Origin: Blastococcus sp. TF02A-35 | Lineage (GTDB): Bacteria > Actinomycetota > Actinomycetes > Mycobacteriales > Geodermatophilaceae | Reading direction: 5' to 3' | Length of the DNA stretch: 64,000 bases | Assembly (NCBI RefSeq): GCF_004571075.1 | Contig: NZ_SPQP01000013.1 | Coordinates: forward strand, 1 to 64,000 | Shown here: positions 249-40,032 of the stretch, in pieces | How positions within the stretch are numbered: position 1 is the first letter of the stretch | Layout: each line of letters opens with the position of its first letter | Position numbers and translations under genes: made by a program | The notes under the pieces: model-generated | Told to the model about the DNA's origin: nothing | Seen by the model: only the letters and a program-made list of their open reading frames with translations | Database searches by the model: none

Positions 249-1517
249 CTACCGAGCGGGTCCGCCACTGCGGCCTTCGTCGAGGTCCCGGTCGGTGCCG
301 GGAGCCGGGGTGGTGACCGTGTCGGCCTGCCACAGATCGGGTCCGAAGACCTCGTACTGGATGTCCCGGGGCGGCACGCCACAGTCGACGAGCGCGCTGC
401 GCACCGCCTGCATGAACGGCAGGGGACCGCACAGGTAGTAGACGGCGTCCTGCGGCAGCTGCACCGCGGAGAGATCCATGATCCCACCGTGCACGCCGTC
501 GACGGGCAGGCTGCACTCCGCGCCGCGCTCGAACCAGACGTGTACCGAACTGTTGGGGAGCTTCCGGACGTCGCCGAGCACCTGCTGGCGCAACGCCCAG
601 GACGACTCGTCGACGTCAGCGTGCAGCAGTGTCAGATCGAGCCGGGAGCCTGCGGTGGCCAGATGGGAAAGCATGCCGGCCATCGGGGAGATGCCGATGC
701 CGGCGCTGGCGAAGACGGCCGGCCGCGAGTCGTCGAGGACGACGTCCCCGAATGGGAGGGACAGGGTGACCGTGTCGCCGACGTCGACGGTGTCGTGCAG
801 CAGGTTGGACACCTCGCCGGCAGGCTTGCCGTTACTCCGTATTCGCTTGACGCTGAACTGGCGGTGTTCACCGTCGTCGGCGCGGGTGAGGCTGTACTGC
901 CGAGGCTGGTGCAGGCCGTCCGCCGTCGGCATCTGCACGGTCACGTACTGGCCGGGCAGCGAGGTCTTGACGAGCCGGTCGTCGATTCGCTTGACCACGA
1001 AGGTGACGACGTCGTCGGTCTCGCGGACCTTCCGCTCCACCTGCCAGGGCCGCCACACCGTCTCCGGCCGGACACCACGGGAGCTGTACAGCCCGCGTTC
1101 CATGTTGATCAGTGCGTAGGCCATCAGCCAGTAGACCTCGTCCCAGGCGGCCGCCACCTCCGGGGTGACCGCGTCGCCGAGCACGTCGACGATTGCCCAG
1201 AAGAGGTGCTCGTGGACGATGTCGTACTGCGCCGGGGTGATGCCGAGGGAGACGTGCTTGTGCGCGATCCGGGTCAGCAGTCGCTCGGGCACCTGCTCAG
1301 GGGTCTTGACCAGGGCACTGGCGAAGACGGCGACCGAGCCGGCCAACGCCACCTGCTGCGTGCCCTCGGCCTGGTTGCCGCGGTTGAACGTGCCGTCGAA
1401 CAACTCGGGGTGGGCGCTGAACATGTGCCCGTAGAACCGCCGGGCGATCTCTTCGATGTTCTCGGCGACGACCGGCAGCGTGGCCTCGATGACAGGACGG
1501 GATCGTTCGGACAGCAC
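249..1517 (-). CDS. hmp: Flavohemoprotein (nitric oxide dioxygenase)
   Basis: This is a 422-residue protein with an N-terminal globin domain and a C-terminal ferredoxin-NADP reductase-like domain, the architecture of Hmp enzymes that oxidise NO to nitrate with O2 and NAD(P)H. The globin half shows the distal Tyr in RRFYGHMF, a PELF/FN..NQ..G.Q region, and the proximal His in AHKHVSLGI. The reductase half shows the FAD motif RQYSLT, the nucleotide site GIGISPM, CGPLPFM and a terminal YEVFGP. I chose the GTG at 1517 because AGGAG lies about 6 nt upstream; the frame stays open to 1598. It lies beside the nar operon, so it probably detoxifies NO arising from nitrate respiration. Confidence 0.93.
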   Translation of the reverse strand: MLSERSRPVIEATLPVVAENIEEIARRFYGHMFSAHPELFDGTFNRGNQAEGTQQVALAGSVAVFASALVKTPEQVPERLLTRIAHKHVSLGITPAQYDIVHEHLFWAIVDVLGDAVTPEVAAAWDEVYWLMAYALINMERGLYSSRGVRPETVWRPWQVERKVRETDDVVTFVVKRIDDRLVKTSLPGQYVTVQMPTADGLHQPRQYSLTRADDGEHRQFSVKRIRSNGKPAGEVSNLLHDTVDVGDTVTLSLPFGDVVLDDSRPAVFASAGIGISPMAGMLSHLATAGSRLDLTLLHADVDESSWALRQQVLGDVRKLPNSSVHVWFERGAECSLPVDGVHGGIMDLSAVQLPQDAVYYLCGPLPFMQAVRSALVDCGVPPRDIQYEVFGPDLWQADTVTTPAPGTDRDLDEGRSGGPAR

Positions 1518-35674: not shown

Positions 35675-37843
35675 TCAGGGGCTGGTGAGCACCACCAGCT
35701 CCTGGGTCGCCCTCGTCATCGCGACGTACCGGTCCACGGCCCCCTCGATCGCCGTGCCGAAGGTCTGCGGTTCGACCAGGACGAGCAGGTCGAACTCCAG
35801 CCCCTTCGCGAGGAGCGGGTCGAGCGACCTGACCCGCGGGGTCGGGCGGAAGGCCGGGGCGCCGATCACGCAGGCCACCCCTTCGGCGTGCCCGGCCAGC
35901 CAGGCCGCGACGACGGCGTCGAGGTCGGCCGCGGAGCCGTGCCGGACCGGGGCACCGCTGCTGCGGATGGACGTCGGCACGTTGGCGTCGGGCAGCACGG
36001 CCCGGATGACCGGCTCGGCCTCGGCCATGACCTCGGCCGGCGTCCGGTAGTTGACCGTCAGGGACGCCAGCTCGACCCGGCCCAGCTCGACGCGCTCGAG
36101 CCGCTCCCGCCACGTCTCGGTGAACCCATGCCGGGCCTGCGCCCGGTCGCCGACGATGGTGAAGCTGCGGGACGGGCAGCGCAGCAGGAGCATCTGCCAC
36201 TCGGCGTCGGTCAGCTCCTGGGCCTCGTCGACGACGACGTGCGCGAAGGGGCCGGCCAGCTCGTCGGGCTCGGCGGTGGGCAGCGCGGCCTGGTCCACCA
36301 GCGCGTCGCGCAGGTCGCCGTGCCGCAGGCTGGTCATCAGCAGCAGCTCGGAGTCGTCGGCCGCGACCAGCTCGTCGATGACACCGGCCATGCGCTCGCG
36401 CTCGGCCGCGACGACGGCGTCCTGACGGCGCCTGCGCCTGGAGGCCTCGGGGTCGCCGAGCCGCTGACGGGCTGCGTCGAGCAGCGGCAGGTCCGACGTC
36501 GTCCAGGCCCGCGGGTCGCGGCGCTGCAGGAGCCGGACCTCGTCGGGGGAGAGCCCCGGAGCGGCCATGCGCAGGTAGGCCTGCACGGACCACAGGTCGC
36601 CGACGACGTCGGTCGCCTCGAGCACGGGCCAGGCCCGGCTGAACGTCGCGCGCAGCTCGCGGTCCTGCAGCAGCGCCTTCCGGAGCAGGTCGTCGTCGAC
36701 CTCGCCGTCGTGCTTGTCCGCGACGATGGTGAGCAGCTCCTCCCAGACCTGCTCGCGCGCCTCGTTGTGCGGCGTGCCCGGCTCGGCGGCCCCGAACGCC
36801 TCGGCCCAGTCGGCGGCGGTGGGCCGGACCTCGTCCCACGGCGTCGTGACCGTGGACGCCCGCGACGGGGGCTCCTCGTAGAACCGGACCGCGGCCTCGA
36901 CCGCCGCCACCAGGTCCACCCTCGACTTCAGGCGGGCCACCTCCGGGTCGGGCTCCGGCGTCGCTGCCGCGCCCTCGGGGACCAGGTCGCGCAGCGTGCA
37001 GGTCCGCACGCCCTCCTCGCCGAGGCTGGGGAGCACGTCGGAGACGTAGGCCAGGTAGGGCTCGTGCGGGCCGACGAACAGGACGCCGCCGCGCCGGTGG
37101 CCCAGCCGGGGGTCGGCGTAGAGGAGGTAGGCGGTGCGGTGCAGGGCGACGACGGTCTTGCCCGTCCCCGGCCCGCCGTCGACGACCAGGGCGCCCTCGG
37201 AGCCGGCGCGGATGATGGCGTCCTGGTCGGCCTGGATGGTGCCCAGCACGTCGCGCATCCGCGCCGTCCGCTCGCTGCCCAGGCTGGCGATGAAGGCGGA
37301 CTGGTCGTCCAGCGCGGCGTGCCCCTCGAACCCGTCGGCGGTGAAGACCTCGTCCCAGTAGTCGGTGACCCGCCCGCGGGTCCAGCGGTACCGGCGGCGG
37401 CTGGCCAGGCCCATCGGGTGGGCGTGGGTGGCGGCGAAGAACGGCTCGGCGGCGGGGGAGCGCCAGTCGAGGAGGAGCCGGCGGCCGGAGCTGTCGGTGA
37501 GGCCGAGCCGTCCCACGTACACCGGCTCGGCGCCGTCGGCGGCCACGATCCGGCCCAGGGTCAGGTCCAGCCCGAAGCGGCGCAGGGTGCGCAGCCGGGC
37601 GCTCAGCCGGTGCACCTCCAGGTCCCGGTTGAGGGCCTCCTCGCCGCTGCCGCCGGGCGCCTTCCGCTCGGCGTCGAGGCGGGCGGACAGCTCGGCGACC
37701 TGCTGCCGGAGGCTCTCGGCGATGGCGGCGAAGTGCTGCTCGTCGGCGGCGACCAGGGCCGGGTCGGCCTTGGCGGCGAGCGTCTCGGGGAGGGCGAACG
37801 CACTGGTGGCTGAGGGCTGGGGCTGGTGCCGGTGGTCGCTCAC
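35675..37843 (-). CDS. helR: RNA polymerase recycling motor ATPase, HelR-type (rifamycin protection)
   Basis: This 722-residue UvrD/HelD-like superfamily 1 ATPase has an N-terminal coiled coil (about 30-90), the HelD-specific DWRSPAAEPFF (126-136), and Walker A GGPGTGKTV (223-231). Walker B-like VVVDEAQELTD, VGDRAQARHGFTETW and a C-terminal VAMTRATQELVVLTS follow. HelD-type proteins pry RNA polymerase from stalled complexes; the HelR branch also displaces bound rifamycin in Streptomyces and mycobacteria. The HelR assignment rests mainly on a rifamycin-associated element 26 bp upstream of the GTG start (37843). Expression is therefore probably rifamycin-inducible. Confidence 0.88.
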   Translation of the reverse strand: MSDHRHQPQPSATSAFALPETLAAKADPALVAADEQHFAAIAESLRQQVAELSARLDAERKAPGGSGEEALNRDLEVHRLSARLRTLRRFGLDLTLGRIVAADGAEPVYVGRLGLTDSSGRRLLLDWRSPAAEPFFAATHAHPMGLASRRRYRWTRGRVTDYWDEVFTADGFEGHAALDDQSAFIASLGSERTARMRDVLGTIQADQDAIIRAGSEGALVVDGGPGTGKTVVALHRTAYLLYADPRLGHRRGGVLFVGPHEPYLAYVSDVLPSLGEEGVRTCTLRDLVPEGAAATPEPDPEVARLKSRVDLVAAVEAAVRFYEEPPSRASTVTTPWDEVRPTAADWAEAFGAAEPGTPHNEAREQVWEELLTIVADKHDGEVDDDLLRKALLQDRELRATFSRAWPVLEATDVVGDLWSVQAYLRMAAPGLSPDEVRLLQRRDPRAWTTSDLPLLDAARQRLGDPEASRRRRRQDAVVAAERERMAGVIDELVAADDSELLLMTSLRHGDLRDALVDQAALPTAEPDELAGPFAHVVVDEAQELTDAEWQMLLLRCPSRSFTIVGDRAQARHGFTETWRERLERVELGRVELASLTVNYRTPAEVMAEAEPVIRAVLPDANVPTSIRSSGAPVRHGSAADLDAVVAAWLAGHAEGVACVIGAPAFRPTPRVRSLDPLLAKGLEFDLLVLVEPQTFGTAIEGAVDRYVAMTRATQELVVLTSP

Positions 37844-37868
37844 GGCGGGCGAGTCTCCGGCACGACCC

Positions 37869-37887
37869 GGGTCTTGCCGCAAGCCCC
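37869..37887. promoter_or_regulatory. Rifamycin-associated element (RAE)
   Basis: On the minus strand this reads GGGGCTTGCGGCAAGACCC, a 19-bp inverted repeat with the perfect core CTTGC-x-GCAAG. It agrees, apart from about one base, with the RAE known upstream of rifamycin-inactivating genes and helR in actinobacteria. It lies between helR and the divergent immunity-like gene. Confidence 0.85.
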
Positions 37888-37902
37888 GGGGTGAGCTATA
37901 CG
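37874..37902 (+). promoter_or_regulatory. Promoter of the immunity-like gene, overlapping the RAE
   Basis: TTGCCG (37874-37879) and TATACG (37897-37902) are spaced by 17 bp, a good SigA-type arrangement. The -35 box is inside the RAE, so a factor at the RAE should affect this promoter directly. The -10 lies 20 bp before the GTG start. Confidence 0.65.
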
Positions 37903-37922
37903 TTGGAAGTGGCAGGAGGTCG

Positions 37923-38445: not shown

Positions 38446-38522
38446 TGGTGGGGCGGGTGGGGCTCGAACCCACGACCCAGGGATTATGAGTCCCATGCTC
38501 TGACCGGCTGAGCTACCGCCCC
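38446..38522 (-). tRNA. tRNA-Met (anticodon CAT)
   Basis: The cloverleaf is complete on the minus strand. The acceptor GGGGCGG pairs with CCGCCCC, the anticodon stem is GGGA(C)/(T)CCC around CTCATAA with anticodon CAT, and the T arm is GTGGG-TTCGAGC-CCCAC. CCA is encoded (38446-38448). The D arm AGCTCAGCCGGTCAGAGC is typical. The anticodon arm GGACTCATAATCC fits elongator tRNA-Met rather than initiator; tRNA-Ile with a modified C34 cannot be fully excluded. Confidence 0.93.
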
Positions 38523-38635: not shown

Positions 38636-38822
38636 CGGCCCGGACGACCCCGCCCCCGAACCCGGGGGCTCGCCCGGGCCCCGCCGAACCGCTCCGGCCC
38701 TCGGGCCGAGCGGACCGGGGACCCACCGTTCCACTGGGGTGAATCCCGTCTGCGCCACCACGGGCAGACAGGTAGGGCCACGTTCCAGCCCGAACCCGTC
38801 AGCTGACTCGGTAGGCGGAGCG
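38636..38822 (+). ncRNA. ydaO/yuaA-type cyclic di-AMP riboswitch
   Basis: The leader of the M23 peptidase gene carries the conserved ydaO elements: GGACCGGGGACCCAC (38712-38726), GGGGTGAATCCCG (38736-38748), AGGGCCACGTTCC (38774-38786) and CGAACCCGTCAGCTGACTC (38791-38809) followed by GGTAGGCGG. In actinobacteria this class typically precedes cell-wall hydrolase genes and turns expression off when c-di-AMP is high. The 5' edge is approximate. The gene start lies 20 bp after the 3' edge. Confidence 0.88.
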
Positions 38823-38841: not shown

Positions 38842-40032
38842 TTGGCGACCCTGCACCACCAGTACCCCCATGCCCGCCTGCTGCGACGCTCCGCCGTCGT
38901 CACCACCCTGGTCGCTGCATCCCTCTTCACGGCCCCCACGGCCTCCGCCGCTCCCGACGAGGGGCGGGCCGACCAGGACGTCGCCGCCCAGGTCGAGGCC
39001 ATCGGGCAGAAGGTCCGCGACGCCGAGGCCAACCTGCAGCGCATGACCATCGAGGCGGAGGCCGCCAGCGGCGCCGCCATGGAGGCCCAGACGCAGCTCG
39101 CCGACGCGCAGCGGCACGCCGAGACGACGGCCGCCCAGCTCGCCGCCGTCCGCGAGGCCGTGGCGGAGGGCGAGGACGACGTCGCGGCTCTCGGCCGGCA
39201 GGCCTTCATGGGCGGCGGCGACACCCGCAGCTCCATGCAGATCGTGCTGCACGCCGGCGGGCCGGCCGAGCTGCTCCAGCAGGCCGCCACCCTCGACCTG
39301 CTCGGCGAGCAGCGTGCGGAGACCCTCGAGGACCTCGAGCGCGACGAGGCACGGGAGGAGCGTCTGGACCAGGAGGCCCGCGACGCCGTCGCCGACCGCG
39401 ACGCCGCCGCCCGCGCCGCCGTCGAGACCCAGCAGGCCGCCGAGGCGCAGCTGGCGTCCGCGCAGGCGGACTTCGACGCCCTGGCTGCGGAGAAGGCGAC
39501 CCTGGACCAGCAGCTGCGCGACGCCGAGATCCGGCTGCTCGCCATGCGCGGCGCCGCCGACGCCGAGGCCGCCTGGGCGCAGCTGCAGGCCGCCGAGGAG
39601 GCGGTCGGTGCGCTCACCGCTGCCGGCGGCGCCGTCCCACCGACGATCGGCCGCGTCACCTCCTGCTACGGCAGCCGCTGGGGTGCCATGCACTACGGCG
39701 TGGACATCGCCGCGCCGATCGGCACCCCGGTCCACTCGCCCGAGCCGGGCGTCGTCCTGCAGGCCGGTCCCGCGAGCGGCTTCGGTCTCGCCGTCGCCGT
39801 CCAGCACCCCGACGGGGCCATCACGGTCTACGGCCACGTCAACCAGTTCTTCGTGCGCCCCGGCCAGGTGGTCGGCGGCGGCGAGCGGATCGCCGAGGTC
39901 GGCAACAAGGGCCAGTCCACCGGGCCGCACCTGCACTTCGAGGTGCACCGGGGCGGCCTCTACGCCGACCGCTCGAACCCGGTGCCGTGGCTGGAGCAGC
40001 GCGGCATCTCGCTCGGGGGCGGTTGCGGCTGA
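38842..40032 (+). CDS. Secreted M23-family peptidoglycan endopeptidase
   Basis: This is a 396-residue exported protein. After the TTG start it has a Sec signal (RRSAVVTTLVAASLFTAPTASAA, cleavage near residue 34), then a long Ala/Glu/Gln-rich coiled coil (about 45-255) like NlpD/EnvC-type hydrolases. The C-terminal LytM/M23 domain (about 270-380) shows the zinc motif HYGVDIA, then VYGHVNQ and HLHFEV. It should cut peptide cross-links of peptidoglycan. A c-di-AMP riboswitch in its leader ties its expression to osmotic or wall state. Confidence 0.93.
   Translation: MATLHHQYPHARLLRRSAVVTTLVAASLFTAPTASAAPDEGRADQDVAAQVEAIGQKVRDAEANLQRMTIEAEAASGAAMEAQTQLADAQRHAETTAAQLAAVREAVAEGEDDVAALGRQAFMGGGDTRSSMQIVLHAGGPAELLQQAATLDLLGEQRAETLEDLERDEAREERLDQEARDAVADRDAAARAAVETQQAAEAQLASAQADFDALAAEKATLDQQLRDAEIRLLAMRGAADAEAAWAQLQAAEEAVGALTAAGGAVPPTIGRVTSCYGSRWGAMHYGVDIAAPIGTPVHSPEPGVVLQAGPASGFGLAVAVQHPDGAITVYGHVNQFFVRPGQVVGGGERIAEVGNKGQSTGPHLHFEVHRGGLYADRSNPVPWLEQRGISLGGGCG

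Follow-up and report, generated by a model that had tools for sequence, protein, structure and literature searches.

The rifamycin-associated element (RAE) precedes rifamycin-resistance genes in many actinobacteria. Here we compared 173 RAE leaders with one from Blastococcus sp. TF02A-35, in which the element stands ahead of helR, the gene for the RNA polymerase recycling motor ATPase HelR. On the basis of the promoter elements, their spacing and their asymmetry, we conclude with high confidence that the RAE is the predicted shared centre of two overlapping, back-to-back promoters, one reading into the resistance gene and the other, referred to in the following as leftward, reading away from it. 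The Blastococcus locus was found in a stretch of 64,000 nucleotides (contig NZ_SPQP01000013.1, positions 1 to 64,000; hereafter the window). The window is an ordinary new member of the group, and the two-promoter module is the interesting part. The RAE and HelR were originally described in Spanogiannopoulos 2014, Surette 2022 and Hurst-Hess 2022.

Two Predicted Promoters Share the RAE

The HelR panel consisted of the best 80 of at least 510 confirmed relatives from a scan of GTDB genome contigs. An RAE (at most two mismatches over 16 fixed positions, 1.2 kb upstream) was present at 63 of these 80 loci, and conservation in the 63 leaders extended well beyond the palindrome. With the first base of the RAE numbered 1, A32, A34 and T36 were invariant on the gene side (63/63), forming xAnAnT at a distance of 19 bp from TTGCGG (positions 6–11). 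On the other side, T-12, A-11, A-15 and A-16 were kept in 61–62 of the 63 leaders; on the opposite strand, these positions read TANGTT, 19 bp after TTGCCG (positions 14 to 9). C-23, also invariant (63/63), corresponds to a G at the expected opposite +1. Around the midpoint of the palindrome, the two −10s are mirror images chiefly at A2 and T6, the positions critical to a −10, and not at the others, which speaks against a single long palindromic operator.

A wider set of sites was collected by searching for the pattern GGNNCTTGCNGCAAGNNCC, which matched in 166 of 394 genomes of the class, 38 of 81 of the order and 43 of 78 of one genus (that of genome G003, which we take to be Mycobacterium, its family f2 being presumably Mycobacteriaceae). 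Matches to a reversed-pattern control were obtained in some genomes of the class, order and genus searches. Only some of these matches were taken on as loci; 45 further places were picked among the class-search matches listed, and 40 of them were fetched. Sites from the class and order searches and from the fetched stretches were oriented by the following gene, using tblastn with the window HelR and clusters of neighbouring open reading frames (ORFs), which we took from their sequence to be rox, rph, rgt and arr. They were pooled with the 63 HelR panel leaders and the loci from the Geodermatophilaceae search (the family loci). Removal of duplicates, defined as identical 100-bp blocks only, reduced 176 sites to 173: 131 helR, 23 rox, 6 rph, 6 rgt, 3 arr, 2 distant helD and 2 unclear, with the window excluded. 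The set includes 92 of the 99 RAE sites of loci L088–L117 and L151–L219, sites with flanks too short for a 188-bp block having been left out. Also outside it are five sites without gene-based orientation (L089, L161, L208, L212 and L217), the 17 HelR loci that lack an RAE, and those eight of the 29 family loci in which the pattern was not matched exactly (by a single mismatch in two). Orientation or gene was assigned by hand for L114, L185, L187, L195, L198 and L219.

On the gene side, xAnnnT was found at 19 bp in 172 of the 173 leaders, with T as the first base in just two; the −10 of the gene promoter was mostly CAnAAT. On the leftward side, TAnnnT was found at 19 bp in 167 leaders, and the predicted +1 was G in 170. 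At the remaining spacer lengths between 15 and 23 bp, TAnnnT occurred in 0–2 sites leftward and in none on the gene side, and gene-side xAnnnT occurred in 17 sites at 21 bp, 31 sites at 22 bp and 0–1 at the rest. There were 26 distinct leftward hexamers, in which T1, A2 and T6 were kept (168, 170 and 170 of 173) and positions 3 and 4 varied. At the 40 sites that do not precede helR or helD (rox, rph, rgt, arr and the two unclear ones), the gene-side element was present in 39 and the leftward element in 37. The helR and arr sites of family f2, obtained after 13 of 31 loci without a helR or arr match had been left out, gave 18/18 and 17/18, respectively (the 173-site set contains three of these 18), with leftward hexamers that differ in their inner bases (TATAGT, TAAAGT, TACAGT).

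We also considered RAE-pattern sites irrespective of the neighbouring gene, a set that includes the 13 omitted f2 loci and overlaps with the 173. One of its 127 sites was too near a contig end, and both −10s were found in 118 of the remaining 126. In 114 of these 118, one −10 began with T and the other did not, so that nearly every module combines a canonical side with a degraded one. The window, which stands outside the 173-site set, fits the same module, with GAGACT and TACGTT both 19 bp from TTGCNG and a G at the +1. Detection of RAEs would be sharper if both −10s were required, not just the palindrome.

The conserved block upstream of the RAE, AACNTATAGCG, could also be read as a sense promoter, P1, with TATAGC as its −10; the RAE would then be part of the transcript, in the tandem P1/P2 layout of mycobacteria. 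Indeed, the hexamer at −12 to −7 is TATAGC in 135 of the 173 sites, and two sense promoters have been described in Mycobacterium smegmatis, with the P1 start mapped some 20 bp ahead of the RAE (PMC10719064; papers given by accession number are cited throughout from excerpts). However, that start misfits the hexamer found here, the last base of which is T in 0/173 sites, and TATAGC is lost in the f2 arr leaders, where the leftward TAnnnT is largely retained (17 of 18 sites). This makes a P1 promoter at this position very improbable in our estimate.

We are just as sceptical that this A+T block serves as an UP element for the gene promoter, contacted by the alpha subunits of the polymerase. The block is located about 52–59 bp before the predicted gene start, in the reach of the alpha C-terminal domain and thus in UP-element range, but an UP element would leave unexplained why TAnnnT is kept with free inner bases, and why a leftward +1 G and terminators are found there. 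Two further candidates were rejected. Alternating RNA hairpins in the helR 5′ leader, formed by the RAE core and a downstream TGCCGCA, would need an RAE that is transcribed, and it lies in neither predicted transcript. MerR-type control likewise goes with 19-bp spacers but has its palindrome within the spacer, whereas the coordinates here place the centre of the palindrome on the −35.

The Predicted Leftward Transcript

We searched for terminator-like hairpins, defined as having −7 kcal/mol or less, a T-rich stretch and a start −3 to +8 nt around the leftward +1, as calculated with one folding program. Such hairpins were found in 69 of the 173 leaders, compared to 16 on the gene side and 28 in dinucleotide shuffles (Fisher p 2e-11 and 1e-6, respectively, with kinship ignored). 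With a threshold of −10 kcal/mol and no T tract required, the numbers were 151 leftward, 68 on the gene side and 114 shuffled. The best hairpin started exactly at +1 in 54 of 166 cases and 3 nt earlier in 43. Loci L156 and L064 were among those with the best-scoring leftward hairpins, and those of L097 and L212 looked like textbook terminators by eye. The terminator hairpin is thus a frequent, not a defining, feature of the module (69/173, and the window is without one).

The two arms of the leftward hairpin covary, pairing at eight or more of nine positions in 71 of the 173 leaders, compared to 10% when arms were swapped between genomes (means 6.90 and 6.08), and none of 2000 permutations reached the observed sum. 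On the gene side, such pairing was seen in 3 of 173 leaders and in 0.3% after swapping (means 5.32 and 5.15). RNAalifold detected no structure in leftward leaders aligned with MAFFT (58 and 35 rows), which we think is caused by varying loop lengths.

A credible leftward gene, by GC-frame criteria and at most 80 nt from the +1, was found at 12 of 172 sites, three of which represent one gene in related genomes; the corresponding number on the gene side was 145 of 172. A terminator was present at one of the 12 sites with a leftward gene versus 68 of the 161 others (p 0.03). At L104, an ATG is located 2 nt past the predicted leftward +1.

Two of the sites without gene-based orientation have other kinds of neighbours. 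At L212, the RAE (1501–1519) and its leftward terminator stand before an ABC transporter ATPase gene (379–1305, minus strand) of the drrA type (TIGR01188, 338 bits, cut-off 312). The transporter is a candidate for an exporter induced by rifamycin, of a kind not among the genes usually linked to an RAE. At L089, a variant RAE (1501–1519) has a leftward TACGTT and no gene-side xAnnnT; it is flanked by an alpha/beta-hydrolase gene and an ORF that by eye resembles a GNAT acetyltransferase (no NCBIfam match).

The RAE–helR Locus of the Window

The initial annotation of the window reported a near-consensus RAE on the minus strand, followed by a gene for a HelD/HelR-like ATPase, and we found both (Table 1). 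The element, GGGGCTTGCGGCAAGACCC, has one mismatch to GGGGCTTGCGGCAAGGCCC, which we take to be the RAE consensus, and none to the 19-bp palindrome form GGGnCTTGCnGCAAGnCCC. Exact GGGGCTTGCGGCAAGGCCC was present within 400 bp upstream at 14 of the 80 panel loci. The distance between the RAE and the GTG, given previously as 26 bp, was measured to be 25 bases. The placement upstream of helR holds as well, but the description as a plain upstream element is incomplete, as the RAE appears to hold both the −35 of helR and that of the opposite promoter. The helR mRNA of the window may be leaderless or nearly so.

When up to three mismatches were allowed, the window gave two matches (one site, both strands), compared to a mean of 0.32 in 100 shuffled windows, seven of which gave two or more. 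The 3.93-Mb genome has no other site with at most two mismatches and four other places with three. These four look like chance matches because, at three mismatches, the reversed pattern gave more matches than the RAE pattern (14 vs. 6).

Table 1. Positions of the RAE, the predicted promoter parts and the two flanking genes in the window.
Feature	Position	Strand	Basis or remark
RAE, GGGGCTTGCGGCAAGACCC	37869–37887	−	only genome site with at most two mismatches to the searched form
Predicted −35 of the helR promoter, TTGCGG	37877–37882	−	within the RAE; 19-bp spacer rule of RAE leaders
Predicted −10 of the helR promoter, GAGACT	37852–37857	−	xAnnnT at 19-bp spacing
Predicted helR start zone, GCCGTG	37841–37846	−	inferred from −10 spacing; includes the GTG (37843–37841)
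helR, RNA polymerase recycling motor ATPase HelR, 722 amino acids	35675–37843	−	NF041254 match, tree, Walker A and DWR motifs
Predicted −35 of the leftward promoter, TTGCCG	37874–37879	+	other strand of the palindrome; 3-bp overlap with the helR −35
Predicted −10 of the leftward promoter, TACGTT	37899–37904	+	19-bp spacer; TAnnnT spacing rule
Predicted +1 of the leftward transcript, G	37911	+	G-at-+1 rule of RAE leaders
Shine–Dalgarno-like AGGAGG of the leftward gene	37914–37919	+	just 3 nt ahead of the GTG
Leftward gene for an Imm-5-like putative immunity protein, 169 amino acids	37923–38432	+	PF21805, 144 bits (cut-off 25)

The Imm5-like gene is divergent to the RAE and helR in the window genome, and a relative of it is present in a second member of the family, which carries a different genus code (L141, L160). 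The predicted leftward RAE promoter points into the gene in both genomes. The Imm5-like gene was rejected as a regular partner of RAE and helR, being found, among the loci compared, only at the window's own loci and in that one other genome. Farther along the window, a cyclic di-AMP riboswitch (RF00379, 59.9 bits, gathering threshold 38) is located at 38682–38817 on the plus strand, ahead of an ORF (38842–40032) that by eye reads as an M23-type peptidoglycan peptidase. The only tRNA that ARAGORN found in the window is a tRNA-Met (cat) at 38446–38522 on the minus strand.

HelR Identity and the Distribution of the RAE

The 722-residue protein matched the NCBIfam profile NF041254 (motor_HelR) with 1253.3 bits (cut-off 750) over residues 16–720, corresponding to positions 1–706 of the 706-position profile, and stayed below the cut-offs for HelD_MYCSM (386 vs. 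1051) and motor_HelR_2 (417 vs. 1100). In the PDB, it matched chain 6yxu_H, the HelD of M. smegmatis (346 bits). In an 88-row tree made by a quick method, the protein was placed among nine Geodermatophilaceae HelRs with a support of 100, six of which (the window included) have an RAE and three of which do not. Six rows of partial HelD/HelR sequences from a second clade fell outside this group, as did the HelD paralog encoded in the same genome as the window protein. Profile scores and tree thus agree in placing the protein with HelR rather than in a HelD clade without rifamycin function, and the earlier reading of a HelR-type factor behind an RAE is supported by the sequence.

The Walker A motif is at residue 223 and the DWR motif at residue 126; the Walker A sequence GGPGTGKT is kept at all 80 panel loci. 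The tip of the PCh-loop reads DDSE (residues 496–499), and the commonest residues in the panel are D, D, D and G. The second HelD of the genome, on contig C27, scored 443 bits against NF041254, below the cut-off, and is 34% identical to the window HelR (best tblastn match). It has no RAE, the best RAE-like match within 600 bp upstream having six mismatches. The genome's own rpoB retains the D, H and S that we take to be most often altered in resistant mutants, with two nearby substitutions relative to the Escherichia coli and Mycobacterium tuberculosis sequences. With these residues kept, the RNA polymerase target therefore looks rifamycin-sensitive.

The RAE and HelR do not always occur together. 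The 17 panel loci without an RAE (within L008–L087) are scattered over the tree, and close relatives differ. The presence of the RAE changes at least 15 times on the tree (11 forced by starred branches) and is clustered no more than shuffled labels. Because of this scatter, the RAE seems to be often lost or gained while HelR stays. In a search of the Geodermatophilaceae, 33 of 57 genomes had a strong HelR match; besides the window's own, 29 loci were obtained, of which 21 had the exact RAE pattern, two had one mismatch and six had none.

A Proposed Switch

On balance, we favor a model in which helR stands behind an RAE that is the centre of two mutually exclusive promoters, with rifamycin shifting the choice to helR. 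The palindrome would provide a TTGCNG −35 on each strand, each with its own −10 at exactly 19 bp. Because these −35s overlap by 3 bp, the polymerase would occupy only one orientation at a time, as it does at bidirectional promoters in E. coli (PMC12825309). The leftward promoter would give rise either to a very short RNA, ended by a hairpin at or near the +1, or to the mRNA of a neighbouring gene, as in the window, and the gene promoter, with its degraded −10, would be weak by default. The canonical leftward −10 and the degraded gene −10 suggest leftward loading as the default. Rifamycin would then shift occupancy to the gene promoter, leading to production of HelR, which would release drug and DNA from the polymerase, consistent with its described action (PMC10719064). 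We infer from the sequence that both promoters are active, that they exclude each other and which direction is the default; our confidence in the switch logic, i.e., how rifamycin tips the balance, is low.

A more specific and quite tentative proposal, which we would not expect to hold in full, is that the RAE works without a dedicated drug receptor and that the polymerase, as the target of the drug, is itself the sensor. It would idle leftward on a terminated RNA of about 25–40 nt until rifamycin breaks this idling, and drug-free polymerase would then load rightward to make HelR, Rox, Rph, Rgt or Arr. If true, this would make the module, which is found throughout an actinobacterial class, a back-to-back counterpart of the convergent Bacillus alarm.

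The GGG/CCC arms of the palindrome lie outside the −35s and were kept in 61–63 of the 63 HelR leaders, even though the arms were not required exactly. Their conservation suggests that a symmetric DNA-binding factor helps, rather than polymerase acting alone. This leads to a different reading, in which the RAE is the operator of a dimeric, rifamycin-responsive regulator acting on the gene promoter, and the leftward promoter is a by-product of symmetry. Consistent with this, a 19-bp palindrome with such arms exceeds the needs of a −35, an unknown factor is favoured or suggested in PMC10719064 and PMC12802891, and E. coli has many cases of divergent transcription from symmetric promoters (PMC12825309). 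However, one would not expect a by-product to retain a canonical −10 at exact spacing (167/173), a G at the +1 and, at some of the sites, a covarying terminator hairpin beginning there, and the excerpts of the cited papers name no such regulator. We consider an operator of this kind possible, but doubtful.

Several points count against two mutually exclusive promoters at the RAE. All promoter calls are sequence-based, and a standard sigma-70 scan (16–18-bp spacers) found nothing in the window region. The leftward leader of the window has no terminator-like site and folds no better than shuffles (z 0.65). Many of the 173 sites are related by descent, and seven of the 126 unfiltered sites had one −10 and one had none. 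Pattern matches on viral contigs (80 loci of 82 stretches), which served as a negative control, had both −10s in 0/80 and at least one in 11; this outcome favours the module, but these decoys are loose, with GGG/CCC arms in just 3/80, which weakens the control. (An RAE in phages was rejected, these 80 loose matches being most likely chance.) No terminator-like hairpin was found in 104 of the 173 leaders, and hairpins of −7 kcal/mol without a T tract barely discriminate (166 leftward, 120 gene side, 143 shuffled). The gene-side arms also exceeded most permutations, with the observed sum reached in 1/2000 for all sites, 16/2000 for helR and 105/2000 for rox, rph and rgt, so relatedness inflates the arm-swap test and effect size alone separates the two sides. 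Plain competition is not enough to predict induction, because a leftward polymerase stalled by rifamycin would block the gene promoter too; this would call for either short-lived stalled complexes or a factor that binds the palindrome. Polymerase alone does not explain the GGG/CCC arms. At five bidirectional promoters of E. coli, basal activity was too low for competition (PMC12825309). Finally, the P1-type start of PMC10719064 was not seen in the leaders analyzed here and is unreconciled with the two-promoter picture.

Comparison with Known Systems

The mechanism of the RAE is described as still to be elucidated in a study from January 2026 (PMC12802891). In M. smegmatis, the RAE overlaps the −35 of the downstream sense promoter P2, and loss of this −35 or of an unknown activator has been offered to explain a loss of induction (PMC10719064, a 2022 review). 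RAE-linked helD genes form two sub-branches, and some genes of the HelR group lack an RAE, as we found here (PMC8655204). The excerpts of PMC7283461 and PMC13246000 contain nothing on RAE anatomy. A leftward promoter at RAEs was not found in the excerpts of the open-licence literature searched, and an earlier description elsewhere is possible. With its fixed two-promoter anatomy, the module makes the open question of RAE mechanism addressable by a few single-site tests, and it connects that question with both the alarm of Bacillus and bidirectional promoters.

The window locus resembles the RAE–helR loci of Streptomyces venezuelae and Mycobacterium abscessus in that the promoter of a class II HelD/HelR gene contains an RAE (PMC10719064, PMC8655204), and that of S. 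venezuelae in having one RAE-linked helR beside RAE-less HelD paralogs. As in known RAE–helR systems, the element overlaps the −35 of a sense promoter. A leftward promoter with a terminated transcript does not occur in the excerpted descriptions, and the window differs further by a predicted start at or next to the GTG and by the Imm5-like gene 35 bp to the other side.

The helD and pps alarm of Bacillus subtilis likewise has two opposed promoters per leader, of which the antisense promoter is the stronger and has a 19-bp spacer; rifampicin silences this promoter and the gene promoter gains (PMC12802891). There, the promoters converge and interfere by collision, whereas those of the RAE would be back to back with overlapping −35s, so that the path of a leftward polymerase does not cross the gene promoter. 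A convergent alarm of the B. subtilis type was not found in the window, as the opposite promoter points away from helR; no search for an intragenic antisense promoter was made.

Like the bidirectional promoters of E. coli and Salmonella, the RAE module consists of symmetric DNA predicted to be used in either orientation, but not both (PMC12825309, PMC10268837). At such promoters, SoxR activates transcription in one direction and represses it in the other. The promoters of E. coli and Salmonella share a −10 and have starts 7–25 bp apart. In the RAE module, by contrast, it is the −35s that overlap, about 66 bp separate the predicted starts, and the module goes with one function in many genomes.

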